Assembly: GCF_040717445.1 (NCBI RefSeq)
Contig: NZ_JBFEFL010000001.1
Location: 2,614,001-2,678,000 of the forward strand
Source: Qipengyuania sp. JC766
Lineage (GTDB): Bacteria; Pseudomonadota; Alphaproteobacteria; Sphingomonadales; Sphingomonadaceae
Length of the DNA: 64,000 bases
Direction: 5' to 3'
Made by a program: the position numbers and the translations under genes. Below the pieces are notes generated by a model, which saw nothing but the letters and a program-made list of their open reading frames with translations, was not told where the DNA came from and ran no database searches. The stretch's first letter is position 1. Every line of letters begins with the position of its first letter. Below are positions 6,917 through 48,997 of the stretch, in pieces.

Positions 6917-6969
6917 CGGCGATAGTATCATCAAGGGCGGCCGTCGTGGCCCGCCAGGGGAGTTAGATC

Positions 6970-8130
6970 ATGCGTCTTGCGATGCGTATGCCCGAGAAGA
7001 AGTCCGGCTCTGCCGCCGGAGACGTCGATCCGCGCGAGAACCAGTCGGCGGAAATCATCGACCTCGCCAGCCGCAATTCCTACCCAGCCGTGGCGCGCAA
7101 GGGCGGGTCCGATGGCCTCACCATGGCGGTGGGGATCGGCGTGGTCGCCCTGCTGGGCGCGGCGGCGTTCTGGGGCATGTCCACGACCCGGACCGCGGGC
7201 GACGAGGCGCAGGCGGTCGGCGGCGAAGGTGTCGCCGGCGAAGTCGCGGCGCAGCAGGTCCCGGCCGTTCCCGTGTCGCAGGTCCCGATCCAGCAGCCGG
7301 TCGACGGCTCGATCCAGCCGGTCGGCAATGTCGGCGTGGGTCAGGCGGATCCGGTCCCGTCGCCCATCTATGCCACGTCTCCGACGCCGCGCGCGGGTCC
7401 GGTCGGCAATCCCAACGCATCGCCTACGCTCGTGTTCGACGCAGGCGGCGCGCCGATCGGGAGCGTCGCCATTCCCGCCGCGGCCGTGGCCGCCGCGGGC
7501 AGTGCCGAGGCGCAGCAGTCGGGCGCCGGCGGCGCGGCGGGCGATTTCGCCAGCCGTATCGGCGGCGTGGGCGGCGGCCCGGCGCAAGCGACCGCGATGG
7601 TCAATCCCGGCACCACGGTGACGCAAGGCACCCTGATCCCCGCGATCCTCGAGACGGCGATCGATACCAACGTCCCCGGCTTCACCCGTGCTGTCGTCAG
7701 CCAAGACGTGCGCAGCTTCGACGGCAAGCGTGTGCTGATCCCGCGCTCCAGCCGGCTGATCGGCCAGTACCAGTCCGGCCTGCAGAACGGTCAGAAGCGC
7801 GCTTACGTCATCTGGACCCGGCTCATCCGTCCCGACGGGGCATCGGTGAACCTGCAATCGCCCGCAGTCGCTTTCGACGGGACGACCGGCCTTCGGGGGA
7901 AGGTGAATTCGAACTTCTTCCAGCGGTTCGGATCGGCCCTCCTGCTCTCGGTAGTCGAGGGCGCGGCAGCCGTTGCGTCCGGCGGTGCTTCGCTGGTGAT
8001 CGGCGGCGGATCGAGCGCTGCATCCGCAGCCCTGCAGCAGGACGGCCAGATCGGGCCGACCATCCGCGTGCGCCAGGGCGAGCCGATCCGCGTGTTCACC
8101 GCCCGCGATCTCGATTTCTCCGGCGTCTGA
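6970..8130 (+). CDS. virB10: VirB10/TrbI-family core-complex protein
   Basis: The product has 386 residues and an AGGGGAG ribosome site 7 nt upstream. It has a cytoplasmic N-terminus, one transmembrane helix at about residues 50-70, a Pro/Gln/Val-rich periplasmic linker (about 85-160) and a C-terminal TrbI beta-barrel domain containing the typical ILETAIDTNVPG and RGEPIRVF-like stretches (here RQGEPIRVFTARDL at the end). VirB10 spans both membranes and senses ATP use by the cytoplasmic ATPases. It is separated from virB9 by 53 nt and lies upstream of virB11 in the same run. Confidence 0.93.
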   Translation: MRLAMRMPEKKSGSAAGDVDPRENQSAEIIDLASRNSYPAVARKGGSDGLTMAVGIGVVALLGAAAFWGMSTTRTAGDEAQAVGGEGVAGEVAAQQVPAVPVSQVPIQQPVDGSIQPVGNVGVGQADPVPSPIYATSPTPRAGPVGNPNASPTLVFDAGGAPIGSVAIPAAAVAAAGSAEAQQSGAGGAAGDFASRIGGVGGGPAQATAMVNPGTTVTQGTLIPAILETAIDTNVPGFTRAVVSQDVRSFDGKRVLIPRSSRLIGQYQSGLQNGQKRAYVIWTRLIRPDGASVNLQSPAVAFDGTTGLRGKVNSNFFQRFGSALLLSVVEGAAAVASGGASLVIGGGSSAASAALQQDGQIGPTIRVRQGEPIRVFTARDLDFSGV

Positions 8131-38266: not shown

Positions 38267-39055
38267 TCAGCCGCGCATGGCCGCATCGATCGGTTCGCCG
38301 GTCACGGGATAGCCGAGATCGTCGTCGATGCAGAGCCAGGTGACACCGTCCCGTTCCTGCAGGAAGGGGGTCACCGTACGCACGGGATGACGCGCGCAAT
38401 CCTCGGCGGCTTCGTCGAAGTCCCGGAACCGGGCCAGCCGTTCCAGATTGCGCCGGGTCGGGTAGATCACGGACAGCTCGCCGCGGTCAGCCGCGGCGAG
38501 CGTATCGCTGGCGCTGCTCCAGAACAGGCGGCTGTTCTCCGTCTCGTCCACGGCCACCTGGACCGCACCGGTGCCGATATCGACCAGGTAGAACCGCGTG
38601 TCGAAGACGCGGGACAGCTTCTCGTTCTTGGGGTGCCAGCGGGCGAAGGGCAGCAACCGGTCGAGTTCGAGCCGCCAGCCGGTATCGTCGAGCACGGTCG
38701 CCAGTCGCCCGGTTTCCAGCAGCAGGTCGCGCGCCCGTGCCGCGCTTGCCGCGTCGATCGTATCGGCAAAGCCGACCGCCAGGCCGGTTTCCTCCAGCGT
38801 CTCGCGAATGGCGGCGATGCGATGGGCGGCCTCTTCGGCATCGAGCGGGGTTTCGAGCGTGGCGGCAAGCGCCAGATCGGCCGGATCGACCCTGCCGCCG
38901 GGAAAGACCACCATGCCGCCGGCAAACGCGAGCGAGCGCGACCGTGTTACCATCAGGAATTCGGGCGCACCGCCATCGGCAGCGCGCCGAAACACGACCA
39001 GCGTTGCCGCCGGGATCGCTTCATCGCTGGCAGGGGCCGGGGAGGGGGAATCCAT
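38267..39055 (-). CDS. Nudix hydrolase (NUDT19-like)
   Basis: The product has 262 residues from the ATG at 39055. The Nudix box is recognisable but with a long insert: FPGGRVD, about 25 residues, then AAIRETLEETGL, the form seen in the NUDT7/NUDT19 CoA-diphosphatase-type proteins. A cytosolic role in hydrolysing CoA or nucleoside diphosphate derivatives is likely. It is not overlapped with neighbours. Its upstream region is shared with the candidate small RNA's regulatory sites on the other strand. Confidence 0.85.
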   Translation of the reverse strand: MDSPSPAPASDEAIPAATLVVFRRAADGGAPEFLMVTRSRSLAFAGGMVVFPGGRVDPADLALAATLETPLDAEEAAHRIAAIRETLEETGLAVGFADTIDAASAARARDLLLETGRLATVLDDTGWRLELDRLLPFARWHPKNEKLSRVFDTRFYLVDIGTGAVQVAVDETENSRLFWSSASDTLAAADRGELSVIYPTRRNLERLARFRDFDEAAEDCARHPVRTVTPFLQERDGVTWLCIDDDLGYPVTGEPIDAAMRG

Positions 39056-39100
39056 GATGCAGGATGTGGCGCAGGTGCGGGGCGAAGCCAAGCGACGGAT

Positions 39101-39120
39101 GCCATGTATGTCGGGAGATT
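39101..39120 (+). promoter_or_regulatory. Putative PspF upstream activating site for the small RNA
   Basis: GCCATGTATGTCGGGAGAT here closely matches GCCATGTATCGGGAAAT upstream of the psp operon (47941-47957), differing by a 2-nt insert and one substitution. It lies about 97-116 nt upstream of the predicted start at 39217, the usual distance for sigma-54 enhancer sites. An ATGTA...TACAT inverted repeat extends it to 39125. Confidence 0.5.
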
Positions 39121-39190
39121 TTACATCGCGGGCGAGGCGTTAATGCGCGTTCACCATCGCAACGGGCGCAAACCGGTCAATCGCCGAAAC

Positions 39191-39205
39191 TGGCACGGGC
39201 CCTGC
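39191..39205 (+). promoter_or_regulatory. Sigma-54 (-24/-12) promoter
   Basis: TGGCACGGGCCCTGC matches the sigma-54 consensus TGGCACG-N4-TTGC at all but one position (C for the first T), with the invariant GG and GC correctly spaced. It is nearly identical to the psp promoter at 47860-47874 (TGGCACGGTCGCTGC). Transcription should start near 39217 on the plus strand. Confidence 0.7.
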
Positions 39206-39216
39206 ATCTGTCAGGG

Positions 39217-39322
39217 CATATCGATTGGTCCTCGGTAGAAAACGTCGGCACCGACCAAAGTCTCCCACGGTGCCGAGCCCCCGACAGGCCCGCTTCCAAG
39301 CCCCCGGAAGCGGGCCTTTTTT
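39217..39322 (+). ncRNA. Candidate sigma-54-dependent small RNA
   Basis: About 105 nt lie between a sigma-54 promoter and a strong intrinsic terminator, on the strand opposite both neighbouring genes, and no start codon leads to a credible frame. The transcript could form a 9-bp hairpin (TCGGCACCG at 39245-39253 with CGGTGCCGA at 39268-39276) presenting loop ACCAAAGTCTCCCA, followed by the terminator hairpin. An alternative pairing TTGGTC (39225-39230) with GACCAA (39253-39258) would exclude the first hairpin. The UCUCCC loop could pair with ribosome-binding sites, a common mode for envelope-stress small RNAs; that part is inference. Confidence 0.6.
39286..39322 (+). terminator. Strong intrinsic terminator of the small RNA
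   Basis: Perfect 12-bp stem AGGCCCGCTTCC (39286-39297) / GGAAGCGGGCCT (39306-39317), 8-nt loop, then a run of T to 39322. The T-run is on the plus strand only, so it terminates rightward transcription, although both flanking genes read leftward. Confidence 0.88.
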
Positions 39323-39343
39323 CTTGTCGGACGAGTGAAAGCC

Positions 39344-39673
39344 TCAGCCGGCCTTCGCGACCTGCTTCTCGTCCATCAGCGTCTGCAGCTCGCCCGCCTC
39401 GAACATTTCGAGCATGATGTCGCTGCCGCCGACGAATTCGCCCTTCACGTAAAGCTGGGGGATGGTTGGCCAGTCGGAATAGCTCTTGATGCCCTGCCGG
39501 ATTTCCATGTCCTGCAGCACGTCGACGCTTTCGTAGGCGACGCCGCAATGGTCGAGGATGGAAACCGCGCGGTTGGAAAAGCCGCATTGCGGGAACAGCG
39601 GCGTGCCCTTCATGAAGAGGACGACGTCGTTGGCGCCGACGAGATCGGCGATGCGGGAATTGGTGTCGGTCAT
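39344..39673 (-). CDS. grxD: Monothiol glutaredoxin, Grx4 (CGFS) family
   Basis: The product has 109 residues. The CGFS active site is at Cys30-Ser33 (FPQCGFSNRA), with LYVKGEFVGGSDIM for glutathione binding. These proteins hold a glutathione-ligated [2Fe-2S] cluster and pass it on, usually together with a BolA protein. The bolA gene is the next one upstream on the same strand (51-bp gap), matching the known Grx4-BolA partnership in iron-sulfur trafficking. Confidence 0.96.
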   Translation of the reverse strand: MTDTNSRIADLVGANDVVLFMKGTPLFPQCGFSNRAVSILDHCGVAYESVDVLQDMEIRQGIKSYSDWPTIPQLYVKGEFVGGSDIMLEMFEAGELQTLMDEKQVAKAG

Positions 39674-39724: not shown

Positions 39725-39961
39725 TCAGGACGTGGGAGCTTGCGTGGTCAGTTGCAAGGCATGCAGCACGCCGCCCATCTTACCGTCCAGCGCCCCGTAG
39801 ACCATCTTGTGCTGCGCGACCCGGCTCTTGCCGGCAAAGGCCGGGGAAACGACCCGCGCGGCATAATGGTCGCCGTCGCCCTTGAGGTCGGTGATCTCCA
39901 CCTCGGCATCGGGCAGGGCGGCCTTGATCATGCCTTCGATTTCGGCAGCGCTCATCGGCAT
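39725..39961 (-). CDS. bolA: BolA family protein
   Basis: The product has 78 residues with the BolA fold. The loop between strands reads DLKGDGDHYAARVVSPAFAGKSRVAQHKMVY, with the invariant His of the HKMVY motif that binds the shared cluster with Grx4. A second ATG two codons in (39955) is an equally possible start. It lies between the DUF1476 gene (4-nt gap) and grxD, so co-expression is likely. Confidence 0.95.
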   Translation of the reverse strand: MPMSAAEIEGMIKAALPDAEVEITDLKGDGDHYAARVVSPAFAGKSRVAQHKMVYGALDGKMGGVLHALQLTTQAPTS

Positions 39962-44222: not shown

Positions 44223-44480
44223 TTACAGGTCGACCCCGCTGGCGATTGCTTCCAGCTTGCGGATACGTTCCTTCAGGTCCGCGATCTCGATCCGGGCGAC
44301 GCCGATGGCGGACCCGTTCTGCAGTTCGGGCGGGACCCTGGGGCCGCGCTCCAGTTCGCGCTCTTTCAGCGCGAGCCAGCCCTGCCAGCATCGCATGGCT
44401 GTCATCGATACGATCGCCAAAGCCGCAAGCACGGTGCTGGCCAGAAGGATTGCCTGTGTCACATGGTCCTCCATTCCCAT
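44223..44480 (-). CDS. Psp-array protein 6: small single-pass coiled-coil protein
   Basis: 85 residues. One transmembrane helix (about residues 9-29, AILLASTVLAALAIVSM) is followed by a charged helix and a terminal IADLKERIRKLEAIASGVDL. That tail is a shortened, degenerate version of the LERIVTD signature shared by the preceding genes. It is the last member of the run, 13 bp after member 5, and the most diverged. Cytoplasmic orientation of the coiled coil is inferred from the basic residues after the helix. Unknown function; membership rests on layout plus the remnant motif. Confidence 0.7.
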   Translation of the reverse strand: MGMEDHVTQAILLASTVLAALAIVSMTAMRCWQGWLALKERELERGPRVPPELQNGSAIGVARIEIADLKERIRKLEAIASGVDL

Positions 44481-44493
44481 CGCGTCCGGTTTC

Positions 44494-44775
44494 CTATTTC
44501 TTCTCGTCTCTCAGAGCTTCGATCTCGTCCGCGATCGCCTTGGCCTCGCGCCCGTCGACAGTGATCCGTTCGAGCACCTTGACCCGGTCGCGCAACTCGT
44601 CGAGCTCGCGCTGGACCTCGGGATCCTGGCGCGCATCCAGCGCCTTTGCCGTGTCGGTCTCGCGTTCCCGGTCGCGAAGCTGCTCGCCTTCGCGCAGCTG
44701 CTTCACGGTACGGTGGCGCTCGTAGATGATCATCACGATCGCCACGATCAGGACGACGGTCCAGACGCTGTTCAT
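44494..44775 (-). CDS. Psp-array protein 5: PspB-like coiled-coil membrane protein
   Basis: 93 residues: transmembrane helix at 3-18, a highly charged helix (about 20-60) and the signature RVKVLERITVDGR...ADEIEALRD at the C-terminus. Its ATG overlaps the stop of member 4 (ATGA). The layout (short N-terminal anchor, cytoplasmic coiled coil) is that of PspB, which works with PspC to sense envelope stress. It is a paralogue of its neighbours rather than a recognised named family. Confidence 0.75.
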   Translation of the reverse strand: MNSVWTVVLIVAIVMIIYERHRTVKQLREGEQLRDRERETDTAKALDARQDPEVQRELDELRDRVKVLERITVDGREAKAIADEIEALRDEKK

Positions 44776-45089
44776 TGCGCACTCTCCTGTCGGATGCGGG
44801 TCCGATCCTCGATTGCATCCAGGTCGCGCAGCTGCTCGATCTGGCCTGCGAGGTCGCTGCGGTTCTCGGTCACGATCCGCTCAAGCACCCGGACCCGCTC
44901 TTCCATTCGTGAATAGTCGCCGTTGGAGAAGCGCGCTTCCTGCACCTTGGCTTCCGCGGCGCGGGCCTGCAGTTCGAGCTTGCGCTCCTTGTGCGCGGCT
45001 TCCTGCTTCTGGAACAGGTAGGCAGCCGGCATCACGATCAGGAGCATCAGCAGGATCGAGCCGAATATAACGAGGAGATTGCCGTCCAT
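44772..45089 (-). CDS. Psp-array protein 4: PspB-like coiled-coil membrane protein
   Basis: 105 residues. Transmembrane helix at about 5-26 (VIFGSILLMLLIVMPAAYLF), an amphipathic basic/acidic helix (KQEAAHKERKLELQARAAEAK) and the signature RVRVLERIVTENRSDLAGQI with EQLRD after it. Its start overlaps the stop of member 3 by one base (TGATG). Probable single-pass inner-membrane protein with a cytoplasmic coiled coil; no named family recognised. Confidence 0.78.
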   Translation of the reverse strand: MDGNLLVIFGSILLMLLIVMPAAYLFQKQEAAHKERKLELQARAAEAKVQEARFSNGDYSRMEERVRVLERIVTENRSDLAGQIEQLRDLDAIEDRTRIRQESAQ

Positions 45090-45400
45090 CAGTTGGCCTC
45101 CCGCTTCATGCCTTCGAGAGCGGCGAATTCGTGGGTCAGCTGGAAACCGCTGTCGGTCACGATCCGCTCCACGTTGGCGAGGCGGTCCTTCATCGACCCC
45201 AATTCGGCGCGCAGTTCCGCATTTTCCTGGGTCAGCAGCTTCACGCGCTCGACCGCTTCGTCGTTGCGCGGATAGACCGCCTTGCCCCAGCTGTTTTCCA
45301 GCGGGTAGCCGTGCCGGACGCGCATCCAGGTCGTGATGACCCAGCCGATCGTGATGGCGGTCACGCCGATCCCGACGGTGGCAGGAGTAATGAATTCCAT
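45089..45400 (-). CDS. Psp-array protein 3: PspB-like coiled-coil membrane protein
   Basis: 103 residues. Hydrophobic helix at about 5-25, then WMRVRHGYPLENSWGK, closely resembling WIRAKHGYDLEDEWGGK of member 2, a Leu/Glu coiled coil, and RLANVERIVTDSGFQLTHEF. Members 2 and 3 are therefore the closest pair in the run and look like a recent tandem duplication. The start overlaps the stop of member 2 by one base. Predicted single-pass with a cytoplasmic C-terminus. Confidence 0.8.
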   Translation of the reverse strand: MEFITPATVGIGVTAITIGWVITTWMRVRHGYPLENSWGKAVYPRNDEAVERVKLLTQENAELRAELGSMKDRLANVERIVTDSGFQLTHEFAALEGMKREAN

Positions 45401-45750
45401 CAGATGCGCTCCTTCTTTTCCATGTTCAGCGGCACGCCGCTGTCTTCCCGGCGCGCGGAGGGCCGGTCGCGCAGCGCCTCGATCTCGTCGGACAGCGAAT
45501 AGCCCTTGTCGGTGACGATCCGTTCCAGGTTGACCATCCGGTCCTGCATGGAATCGAGCTGCCCTTTCAGCGCTTCATTCTCCGCCTTCAGGCGCTTCGT
45601 TTCGGCGCTGTCGCCGCGCTGCGTCTTGCCGCCCCATTCATCCTCGAGGTCGTAGCCGTGCTTGGCACGGATCCAGTTGTTGATCAGCCAGCCACCCGTG
45701 CTCAGCGCGATGATGGCGATGACGAAAGCAGGTCCACCCCAGTCCATCAC
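45400..45750 (-). CDS. Psp-array protein 2: PspB-like coiled-coil membrane protein
   Basis: 116 residues. It begins MMDWGGPAFVIAIIAL, similar in style to PspB (MDWEAIIIVPIVVVG), followed by the NNWIRAKHGYDLEDEW segment, a coiled coil (RLKAENEALKGQLDSMQDRM) and the full signature NLERIVTDKGYSLSDEIEAL. The tail (SGVPLNMEKKERI) matches that of member 1 (SGTPLDMPRKETV). The start overlaps the stop of member 1 (ATGA). Confidence 0.8.
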   Translation of the reverse strand: MMDWGGPAFVIAIIALSTGGWLINNWIRAKHGYDLEDEWGGKTQRGDSAETKRLKAENEALKGQLDSMQDRMVNLERIVTDKGYSLSDEIEALRDRPSARREDSGVPLNMEKKERI

Positions 45751-46070
45751 ACCGTCTCCTTGCGCGGCATGTCGAGCGGCGTGCCGCTGCCGGACTGTTC
45801 CACCGCCTGGCGATCGCGCAGCGCCTCGATCTGCGTGGCAACGTCGTAGCCGCGATCGGTGACGATCCGTTCCAGGACCTGCACCCGCTGTTCCAGCTGG
45901 GCGACGTGGCTGGCATATTGCGCGGCCTTTTCGCTGCTCATTTCCGCGGTGGCGGTAATGCGCTTTTCTTCCAGCTTCTTGCGGCCGTTCAGCCAGATGA
46001 TGCCGAGGACCATCAGGAACGGCGCGGTTACCGCCGCCAGTCCCGTCAGTGCTCCGATGAATTCACCCAT
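45747..46070 (-). CDS. Psp-array protein 1: PspB-like coiled-coil membrane protein
   Basis: 107 residues. Transmembrane helix at about 8-28 (LTGLAAVTAPFLMVLGIIWL), basic stop (NGRKKLEEKR), a coiled-coil helix, then QVLERIVTDRGYDVATQIEA with LRD following. It begins 52 bp after pspC, so it continues the same transcript. Single-pass with cytoplasmic tail inferred. Shares its C-terminal SGxPLxMxxKE pattern with member 2. Confidence 0.8.
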   Translation of the reverse strand: MGEFIGALTGLAAVTAPFLMVLGIIWLNGRKKLEEKRITATAEMSSEKAAQYASHVAQLEQRVQVLERIVTDRGYDVATQIEALRDRQAVEQSGSGTPLDMPRKETV

Positions 46071-46122
46071 TTTTCTTCCCCTTGTCCCTTGGTATTCCTG
46101 ACCTGGCGATTGTCCGTCGCGG

Positions 46123-46500
46123 TCAGCGCAGCTGTTCGATTTCGGCGCTCAGGCGCGGATTGCTGTTGACGTAGAAGCTTTCCACTTCGGCCAGCCGGCG
46201 GTCCACGTCCCGCATCCGTGCCCGGATTTCCCGGCTGGTGCGCTGCGGGCTCTGCCGTACGCGCTGCCAGTACCTCTGTTCTTCCGGCTCGCCGTAGAGG
46301 TGCTGCGGCTTCTTGTTCAGCAGCACGCCCATGATGAGGTAGGGCGGAATGGTCATGCCTCCGGTCAGGAAGGTCAGCGCGATGGCGCCCAGCCGGACCC
46401 AGATGGCGTTGACGCCGGTGTAGTCGGCGATGCCGGAACAGACGCCCAGCAGCTTGGCGTTCGCCTTGTCGCGATAGAGTGTGGTGCGCGGGCTGTTCAC
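46123..46500 (-). CDS. pspC: Phage shock protein C
   Basis: 125 residues. The PspC domain occupies the first 65 residues (TTLYRDKANAKLLGVCSGIADYTG, then two hydrophobic stretches with GGMTIPPYLIMGVLL). The C-terminal extension contains RRLAEVESFYVNSNPRLSAE plus IEQLR, an echo of the array signature, which suggests a common docking partner. PspC is an inner-membrane sensor that, with PspB, releases PspF from PspA inhibition under envelope stress. The start overlaps the pspB stop (ATGA). Confidence 0.93.
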   Translation of the reverse strand: MNSPRTTLYRDKANAKLLGVCSGIADYTGVNAIWVRLGAIALTFLTGGMTIPPYLIMGVLLNKKPQHLYGEPEEQRYWQRVRQSPQRTSREIRARMRDVDRRLAEVESFYVNSNPRLSAEIEQLR

Positions 46501-47662: not shown

Positions 47663-47815
47663 TCATGCCAGCTCCATCGTCTGCAGCGGCAGGGTAACGG
47701 CTTGCGCAGGCGAGGTGAACATCTGCGTGCTGACCGCGACGAACAGCGTCATGGCCACGGTGCTGATGAGTGCGGCCTTGCCCACTTTCGTCTTCAGGAA
47801 TTCGCGGTCGAACAT
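47663..47815 (-). CDS. 50-residue membrane peptide, first gene of the psp operon
   Basis: A short frame, 33 nt after the predicted sigma-54 start site, with GAGG 11 nt before its ATG. It encodes a basic N-terminus (MFDREFLKTKVGKAA), one hydrophobic helix (LISTVAMTLFVAVSTQMF) and a possible signal-peptidase site (AQA) before a short tail. Its stop overlaps the ATG at 47666, which leads in frame into pspA. That coupling and its position argue that it is translated. No family recognised; it could be a leader or a small stress peptide analogous in position, not sequence, to other small Psp proteins. Confidence 0.6.
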   Translation of the reverse strand: MFDREFLKTKVGKAALISTVAMTLFVAVSTQMFTSPAQAVTLPLQTMELA

Positions 47816-47859: not shown

Positions 47860-47874
47860 GCAGCGACCGTGCCA
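47860..47874 (-). promoter_or_regulatory. Sigma-54 promoter of the psp operon
   Basis: On the minus strand, TGGCACGGTCGCTGC matches the -24/-12 sigma-54 consensus with correct GG-to-GC spacing; the predicted start is near 47848. It is the expected promoter type for a PspF-controlled psp operon and almost identical to the promoter at 39191-39205. Confidence 0.85.
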
Positions 47875-47940
47875 ATTTCAAAAATACACTAAAAATCAGT
47901 ACCATAGGGCCAAATCGACGAACGGCATATGGTGTGTATT

Positions 47941-47957
47941 GCCATGTATCGGGAAAT
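47941..47957. promoter_or_regulatory. Putative PspF upstream activating site
   Basis: GCCATGTATCGGGAAAT lies about 93-110 nt upstream of the predicted psp start site and 18 nt before the pspF ATG. It is repeated, with a 2-nt insert, upstream of the candidate small RNA (39101-39120). Related GTGTAT motifs flank it (GGTGTGTATTGCC; TAGTGTATTT on the other strand near 47890). Its place suggests that PspF both activates the operon and limits its own expression. Confidence 0.5.
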
Positions 47958-47974
47958 CTCACTATATTTCGGGC

Positions 47975-48997
<1,023 letters not shown>

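Follow-up and report, generated by a model that had tools for sequence, protein, structure and literature searches.

Introduction

Small RNAs that depend on sigma-54 and an activator protein include Qrr (activated by LuxO), GlmY/GlmZ (GlrR), CrcZ (CbrB) and NrsZ (NtrC). In these systems a -24/-12 promoter and an upstream activator site are combined with a conserved hairpin and a terminator. The locus analyzed here resembles them in promoter, predicted activator site and hairpin and, in the window itself, in the terminator, while it differs in its proposed activator and in its lineage. It also differs in that no family of Rfam 15 reached the gathering threshold in the gap under study, the best sub-threshold match of a permissive scan scoring 19.9 bits against 47. 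We regard the RNA as a new family of a known kind of small RNA. A further comparison is offered by the C-rich-loop RNAs of the sX13 type, which carry pyrimidine-rich loops that could mask ribosome-binding sites; membership in sX13 itself (Rfam RF02232) was considered and rejected, since the score is 16.7 bits and the gathering score 50.

Another of the closest known systems is the PrsK/PrsR (XrtA/PEP-CTERM) regulon, in which PrsK/PrsR is described as the switch of PEP-CTERM surface proteins. In the accessible part of Haft et al. 2006 (PMC1569441), its motif 1 is given as 17 nt long and ending in TTTACA, with the -24/-12 motif following after a mean of 62.8 nt (32–92). The regulon members described there are protein genes, and a few additional sites stand upstream of further genes; no small RNA is named among them in that part, and the signal of PrsK is termed obscure. 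In another bacterial group, a PEP-CTERM gene with an RpoN promoter is reported, its enhancer having been predicted earlier (PMC9850573, as far as its accessible part goes). In the open-licence papers found by searching, titles and opening lines name no small RNA of the PrsR regulon, nor such an RNA in sphingomonads.

Here we analyzed a stretch of 64,000 nucleotides from Qipengyuania sp. JC766, called the window below. A small-RNA gene very probably lies in one of its intergenic gaps and has counterparts in many members of the same bacterial family. The activator of this RNA is most likely the surface-polysaccharide regulator PrsR and not the membrane-stress regulator PspF, which an earlier note on this DNA had proposed.

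Structure of the Locus

The gap lies between two minus-strand genes and harbors a sigma-54-type site, a hairpin and a terminator on the plus strand. Its divergent upstream neighbour is a NUDIX hydrolase gene (38267..39055, minus strand; Pfam PF00293), for which a start at the ATG at 39055 is likelier than one at the TTG at 39091. The convergent neighbour is grxD, encoding a monothiol glutaredoxin (39344..39673, minus strand; Pfam PF00462), with synteny in 17 relatives, and the next gene after it is bolA (39725-39961); the names grxD and bolA were assigned from the look of the sequence. The sigma-54 -24/-12 promoter TGGCACGGGCCCTGC (39191..39205, plus strand) precedes a predicted small RNA of about 106 nt (39217..39322, plus strand), which was delimited from promoter and terminator and is conserved in relatives, its presumed start being placed 12 nt past the C of the -12 element and its end at the T-run. 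The predicted RNA contains a 5′ motif TTGGTCCTCGG (39225..39235, plus strand; GGTCTTCGA in relatives), which is a candidate second pairing site, and a conserved GC-rich hairpin (39245..39276, plus strand) with a 9-bp stem (39245-39253/39268-39276) and the loop ACCAAAGTCTCCCA with its recurring GUCUC core. It ends in an intrinsic terminator (39286..39322, plus strand), which has a perfect 12-bp stem (39286-39297/39306-39317) and a T-run. The fold of 39217-39325 has an energy of -45.8 kcal/mol (z -4.07), and none of 200 shuffles was equally stable. The hairpin and the 12-bp terminator with T-run that the earlier note had described on the plus strand, between neighbours on the minus strand, are thus both present.

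Conservation in the Family

Taken alone, the sigma-54 site is not in excess in the window, where 60 sites with ≤2 mismatches stand against 63.9 expected and three sites with ≤1 mismatch against 4.25 expected, so the case rests on conservation. When the gap was searched against 397 genomes of the family, the matches were local, and the best ones lie mostly over the upstream part and stop at the promoter or close to it. Among the loci fetched, 17 other genomes carry grxD, the same promoter and the RNA in the same arrangement, and the NUDIX gene is also present in 13 of these 17 grxD-linked loci. The four without a NUDIX match (L012, L026, L027 and L031) retain the upstream elements, which therefore need not belong to the NUDIX gene. 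A pattern scan of genome contigs, which yielded at least 120 stretches, added at least 37 further distinct loci of like kind, 34 of them labelled as sphingomonads and three (L093, L101 and L122) carrying other MAG labels; at some loci, such as those of Parasphingopyxis (L054, L066 and L164), no grxD match was found within 1500 nt. Four genomes (G050, G184, G227 and G264) contain two copies of the RNA gene each, about 0.4–1.2 kb apart, which may be sibling small RNAs.

In all, 63 sites passed the box filter described below, and seven were set aside (four membrane-protein promoters, one PEP-CTERM gene, one activator gene and one site cut by a contig end), leaving 56 RNAs. Alignment A1 holds 53 of the 56, three near-copies being dropped, and alignment A2 holds 31 of the 56, its rows being of like RNA type. 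The promoter core TGGCACG is invariant across the 53 rows of A1, all found by searches that used that very motif. That a chance sigma-54-like site stands beside hairpins belonging to something else would agree with the lack of excess in the window, but the fixed spacing of several elements across tens of species, together with the covariation reported below, speaks against it; we judge it refuted already by the conservation and give it next to no probability. The small-RNA reading of the gap is well supported by these comparisons, and the earlier proposal of a small RNA under a sigma-54 promoter gains backing from both conservation and covariation.

Anatomy of the Promoter Region

The conserved upstream element of the gap is box A, TGTCGGGAGATTTTACA (39109..39125, plus strand), a predicted PrsR binding site (PEP-CTERM box, 'motif 1'). 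It reads TGTCGG-N5-TTTACA, is 17 nt long and lies 65 nt before TGGCAC. The consensus of 61 sites is (T/C)GTCGG-N5-(T/C)TTACA, in which GTC, T and AC were imposed by the filter while length (15–19 letters allowed) and position were free; the length was identical at 61 of 61 sites, and the position relative to TGGCAC was -81 (37 sites), -80 (19), -79 (one) or -59 (four). Box B, GTTCACCATCG (39149..39159, plus strand; family consensus GTTAACCATCG), presumably resembles a CtrA-type or a degenerate IHF-type site. It occurs as GTTAACCATC at -38 from TGGCAC in 54 of the 61 sites, two thirds of which came from a scan that required ACCATC and allowed a spacing of 22–44 nt. Across 71 sites in 19 PrsR-positive genomes, the distance from box A to the -12 element took only the values 73–75 nt (eight sites), 83–87 nt (26) and 94–97 nt (37), and these spacings are helical-turn steps.

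Comparison with the psp Promoter

The earlier note had placed the RNA in the PspF regulon as an envelope-stress small RNA, and part of what it saw is there. The psp promoter TGGCACGGTCGCTGC (47860..47874, minus strand), with a PspF-type upstream element at about 47928-47968, lies about 8.7 kb away, next to pspF (47975..48997, plus strand; NCBIfam TIGR02974, 469 bits against a cut-off of 443.6). Its core is nearly identical to the site at 39191-39205, as had been said, the two differing at two of 15 bases. A shared site TGCCATGTAT, which the note had taken for a psp-like upstream element, does stand near both promoters in this genome (39100-39109 and 47940-47949), but it is not the element conserved at psp promoters, and the conserved upstream element of the gap is box A instead.

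The psp upstream element, CC-N5/9-GGCAA, was found at 30 of 30 psp promoters, 18 of them carrying the strict form CCRA-N3/4-TTGGCAA. Among the 56 RNA promoters, the strict PspF-type element occurs at none and the loose form at five; the gap itself has neither form, and the loose one is absent from both of its strands. Conversely, box A was found at none of the 30 psp promoters. The PspF regulon and the gap RNA are alike in the sigma-54 promoter core and differ in the upstream activator site. The RNA does not follow PspF across genomes either, being present in 62 of 92 PspF-positive and four of seven PspF-negative genomes (Fisher p 0.68), while box A fits the PrsR box. Activation by PspF, for which the similar core, the shared TGCCATGTAT and the proximity of the psp promoter can be cited, is not likely on this evidence, and we consider membership in the psp regulon very improbable. 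The comparison also illustrates that a sigma-54 site judged without its upstream element can be given the wrong activator.

Several observations concern the psp system itself. A sigma-54 site with a PspF-type element, TTGGTGAAAAATCCCAA (by eye), stands in the same genome in front of a small gene that has a PspC-like stretch behind it (L001, G000:C1:168191-171205), and this is a probable second PspF target. In the window, a 50-aa open frame at 47663-47815, without a Pfam family, opens the psp operon, and similar ATGTTCGAC/ATGTATGAC starts were seen by eye behind several psp promoters of relatives. Behind the operon (44223-46500) there is a run of small membrane-like proteins that are PspB-like by eye, three of which were scanned and had no Pfam match.

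PrsR as Candidate Activator

By the published description, which is the basis of the comparison with the accessible part of PMC1569441, box A agrees with the PrsR motif in length, in its 3′ end and in spacing, although our 65 nt were measured to TGGCAC and the published 62.8 nt to motif 2, whose exact edge may differ. Further likenesses to the PrsR regulon are the -24/-12 promoter, the presence of prsR and prsK genes, and the same box before PEP-CTERM genes in relatives. The genome of Qipengyuania sp. JC766 encodes PrsR (TIGR02915, 668 bits against a cut-off of 502.6) and PrsK (TIGR02916, 461 bits against 300), and epsB2, prsK, prsR and prsT-like genes stand together. PF00158 gave eight matches to sigma-54 activators over its cut-off in this genome, five of them strong, which are PrsR and PspF by NCBIfam, NtrC and NtrX by eye, and one orphan that reaches no family cut-off.

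The pattern of box A plus promoter occurs at exactly two sites in this genome, against none in the reversed control, and the matches precede no PEP-CTERM gene there. The second site precedes a gene for an 80-aa, membrane-like protein without a Pfam or NCBIfam match (MFRKVGRLFVIKTRLEAF...; G000:C1:175518-175773, L002, L199 and L210). Homologues of this protein with the same promoter were seen, partly by eye, at no fewer than seven other loci (L065, L091, L160, L255, L261, L263 and L266). Across 25 genomes chosen by us, the pattern was found at 1–16 sites in each of 19 PrsR-positive genomes and in none of six PrsR-negative ones, the reversed control giving no site in any genome. Thirty of the 71 sites were read, and 15 stand before PEP-CTERM genes, five before the small membrane protein (partly by eye), nine before the RNA and one before another short RNA. 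Nine of ten PEP-CTERM proteins scanned exceeded the TIGR02595 cut-off, L272 falling short by 0.1 bit, and four of six exceeded PF07589, with L253 and L270 just under; one protein is in both scanned sets. The other short RNA, with a terminator, lies behind box A and a sigma-54 promoter at about 1596-1680 of L254, in a genome (G005) that lacks a strong match to the main RNA. A protein-coding reading of the RNA was tried and rejected, since seven of nine RNA sites have no frame of ≥60 codons with a ribosome-binding site starting within 400 nt, and in the remaining two (L251 and L211) the only such frames begin at least 344 nt downstream.

Co-occurrence of the RNA with PrsR

A sequence-only model of promoter plus RNA (R1, 53 sites) matched 362 of the 397 genomes at E 0.01. 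As many of the weaker ones probably represent other sigma-54 promoters, a threshold of E 1e-7, our own choice, was applied to the 99 genomes with both PrsR and PspF data. The RNA was present in 65 of 84 PrsR-positive genomes and in one of 15 PrsR-negative genomes (p 2.6e-7). With one genome per genus the counts were 62 of 79 against one of 15, and with the nine genomes known to be in the model left out they were 56 of 75 against one of 15 (p 1.0e-6). Stricter thresholds gave 61 of 84 (1e-9) and 52 of 84 (1e-12), each against one of 15. At E 1e-7, 19 of the 84 PrsR-positive genomes have no strong RNA match. When the absence of PrsR was re-checked with the protein of this genome, the best matches had ≤47% identity over long stretches, and shorter core matches reached 53%. 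PrsR is thus linked to the RNA by motif and by co-occurrence, two lines of evidence that are not fully independent because R1 contains box A; co-occurrence does not by itself separate PrsR from the other sigma-54 activators present.

The single exception is G069 (L227; 200 contigs, 97% complete), which has a strong RNA match although the searches found no PrsR and no PspF in it. It can be taken to favour another activator, NtrX or the orphan at G000:C1:1207978, with PrsR correlated by lineage only, as can the finding that at least three activator-like matches of whatever type occur in every one of 18 genomes examined, whether or not these have the RNA. Against this reading stand the agreement of the box with the published PrsR motif, its position before PEP-CTERM genes within the family, and the absence of the pattern from the six PrsR-negative genomes despite their other activators; we consider the reading quite unlikely, and PrsR as the activator is strongly suggested by the combined motif and distribution. 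The orphan itself (L045, G000:C1:1206478-1209975) is of the response-regulator type, with GAFAGA replacing the usual GAFTGA. NtrC was rejected as a candidate, the glnK-type promoter of the same genome (L008, gene identified by eye) having no box A.

RNA Structure, Loop and Terminator across Relatives

The hairpin covaries. Among the 31 of 56 RNAs that are of like type, one helix shows changes on both sides at eight of eight counted pairs, 90.7% of its cells are paired against 76.1% when shuffled and 36–52% when slid, and its covariation score is 0.431 against 0.171 for shuffled rows, with none of 500 shuffles as high. A strict test asked whether the single minimum-energy fold of each RNA shows the loop motif on a stem of seven pairs. 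This was so for 31 of the 56, against 7.0 in shuffles, and the 25 that failed often did so through small extra pairs within the loop. The loop pointed out in the earlier note proved to have a recurring core, which across all types reads GTC(T/C)(T/C) in 54 of 56, GTCTC in 45 and (A/G)GTCTCC in 32. The second of the two mutually exclusive pairings that it had drawn did not hold up in relatives, the TTGGTC/GACCAA partner being present in only five of the 56 RNAs. A second motif, GGTCYTCG-like or GGUCUUCG-like, occurs within the first 50 nt of 26 of the 56 RNAs. In L104, at about 6930-6990, four tandem copies of the motif GGTCTTCGATAA, one of them degenerate, lie in the 5′ part of the RNA.

The check on relatives that the earlier note had proposed therefore came out in favour of promoter and hairpin and mixed for the terminator. 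A terminator was found within 180 nt of the predicted start in 26 of 56 RNAs, against about 4.0 expected from simple shuffles, leaving 30 without one, and a scan of the opposite strand also gave 26 of 56. A crude gene caller placed the next gene convergently at 45 of the 56 loci and in the sense direction at eight, and found none at three; the caller is crude because at least L104, L107 and L133 have a convergent grxD by tblastn. The reading of the RNA as a leader of a downstream gene was rejected on the count of convergent neighbours.

Target Screen and Possible Functions

Targets of the loop were sought in seven genomes with the pattern GGGAGACY-N1-7-ATG, which returned 76 rows (reversed control 11), from which 75 stretches were fetched as two rows overlap. 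No credible conserved target gene emerged in these seven genomes, so the target prediction from the loop sequence that the earlier note had suggested gave no candidate. A gene that we named by eye as rplE recurs in six of the seven, probably through the coding constraint of the preceding gene, and one pair of 68–70-aa proteins, 36% identical, appears in two of the seven; one match, L351, falls on the RNA gene itself, in complement. Signal-peptide genes were more frequent among the screen matches (26 of 50) than among GGAG genes (19 of 65, p 0.02), an excess that was gone against GGGAG genes (10 of 20, p 1.0). The loop of L013 shows complementarity to GGGAGACCA-ATG. For an RNA that blocks outer-membrane protein synthesis, as earlier supposed, no support was obtained.

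The missing conserved target could also mean that the RNA has no function in trans and acts by antisense or interference against the convergent neighbour, here grxD-bolA, or as a protein-binding RNA. The prevalence of a convergent downstream gene by the crude caller fits such a role, and transcripts could enter that neighbour where a T-run terminator is lacking (30 of 56). Three findings count against it, namely that grxD is not the convergent gene at every locus (L054, L066 and L164), that the hairpin covaries, which antisense overlap would not need, and that in the window the predicted RNA ends 21 nt short of grxD. We consider this unlikely, with a higher probability than any other alternative activator or origin discussed above.

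Discussion

Our preferred reading is that the stretch 39217-39322 encodes a small non-coding RNA controlled by the PrsK-PrsR two-component system, as part of the exopolysaccharide/PEP-CTERM regulon, and that this product is probably a trans-acting antisense RNA; judged from sequence comparison, we hold this to be likely. The envelope stress of the earlier note would accordingly give way to an exopolysaccharide/PEP-CTERM surface programme, as the regulon suggests. As regards transcription, PrsR binding, antisense function and targets, we infer a course of events in which phosphorylated PrsR would bind box A (39109-39125) and reach, by looping, the sigma-54 RNA polymerase at 39191-39205. Transcription would then start and yield an RNA of about 106 nt that ends at the terminator. 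Its exposed GUCUC loop may then pair in trans with GGAGAC-like ribosome-binding sites and repress the target mRNAs, and in many relatives the second GGUCUUCG motif may also pair with targets.

If PrsR drives the RNA, the RNA would appear alongside the PEP-CTERM/exopolysaccharide programme that is under PrsR control in relatives; in Qipengyuania sp. JC766 it would be made with one small membrane protein. We suggest, tentatively and with somewhat less than even confidence, that the regulatory RNA, along with the small membrane protein, is one of the most widespread PrsK/PrsR outputs in Sphingomonadaceae, and that in genomes with only these two sites, as here, PrsR serves chiefly as an RNA-based switch, turning down other genes of the cell surface or of metabolism while the exopolysaccharide programme is running. 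If this is true, a non-coding arm would be added to the PEP-CTERM/exosortase regulon, the sphingomonads would gain an RNA family with a proposed activator, and the RNA could serve as a sensitive reporter of the PrsK signal.
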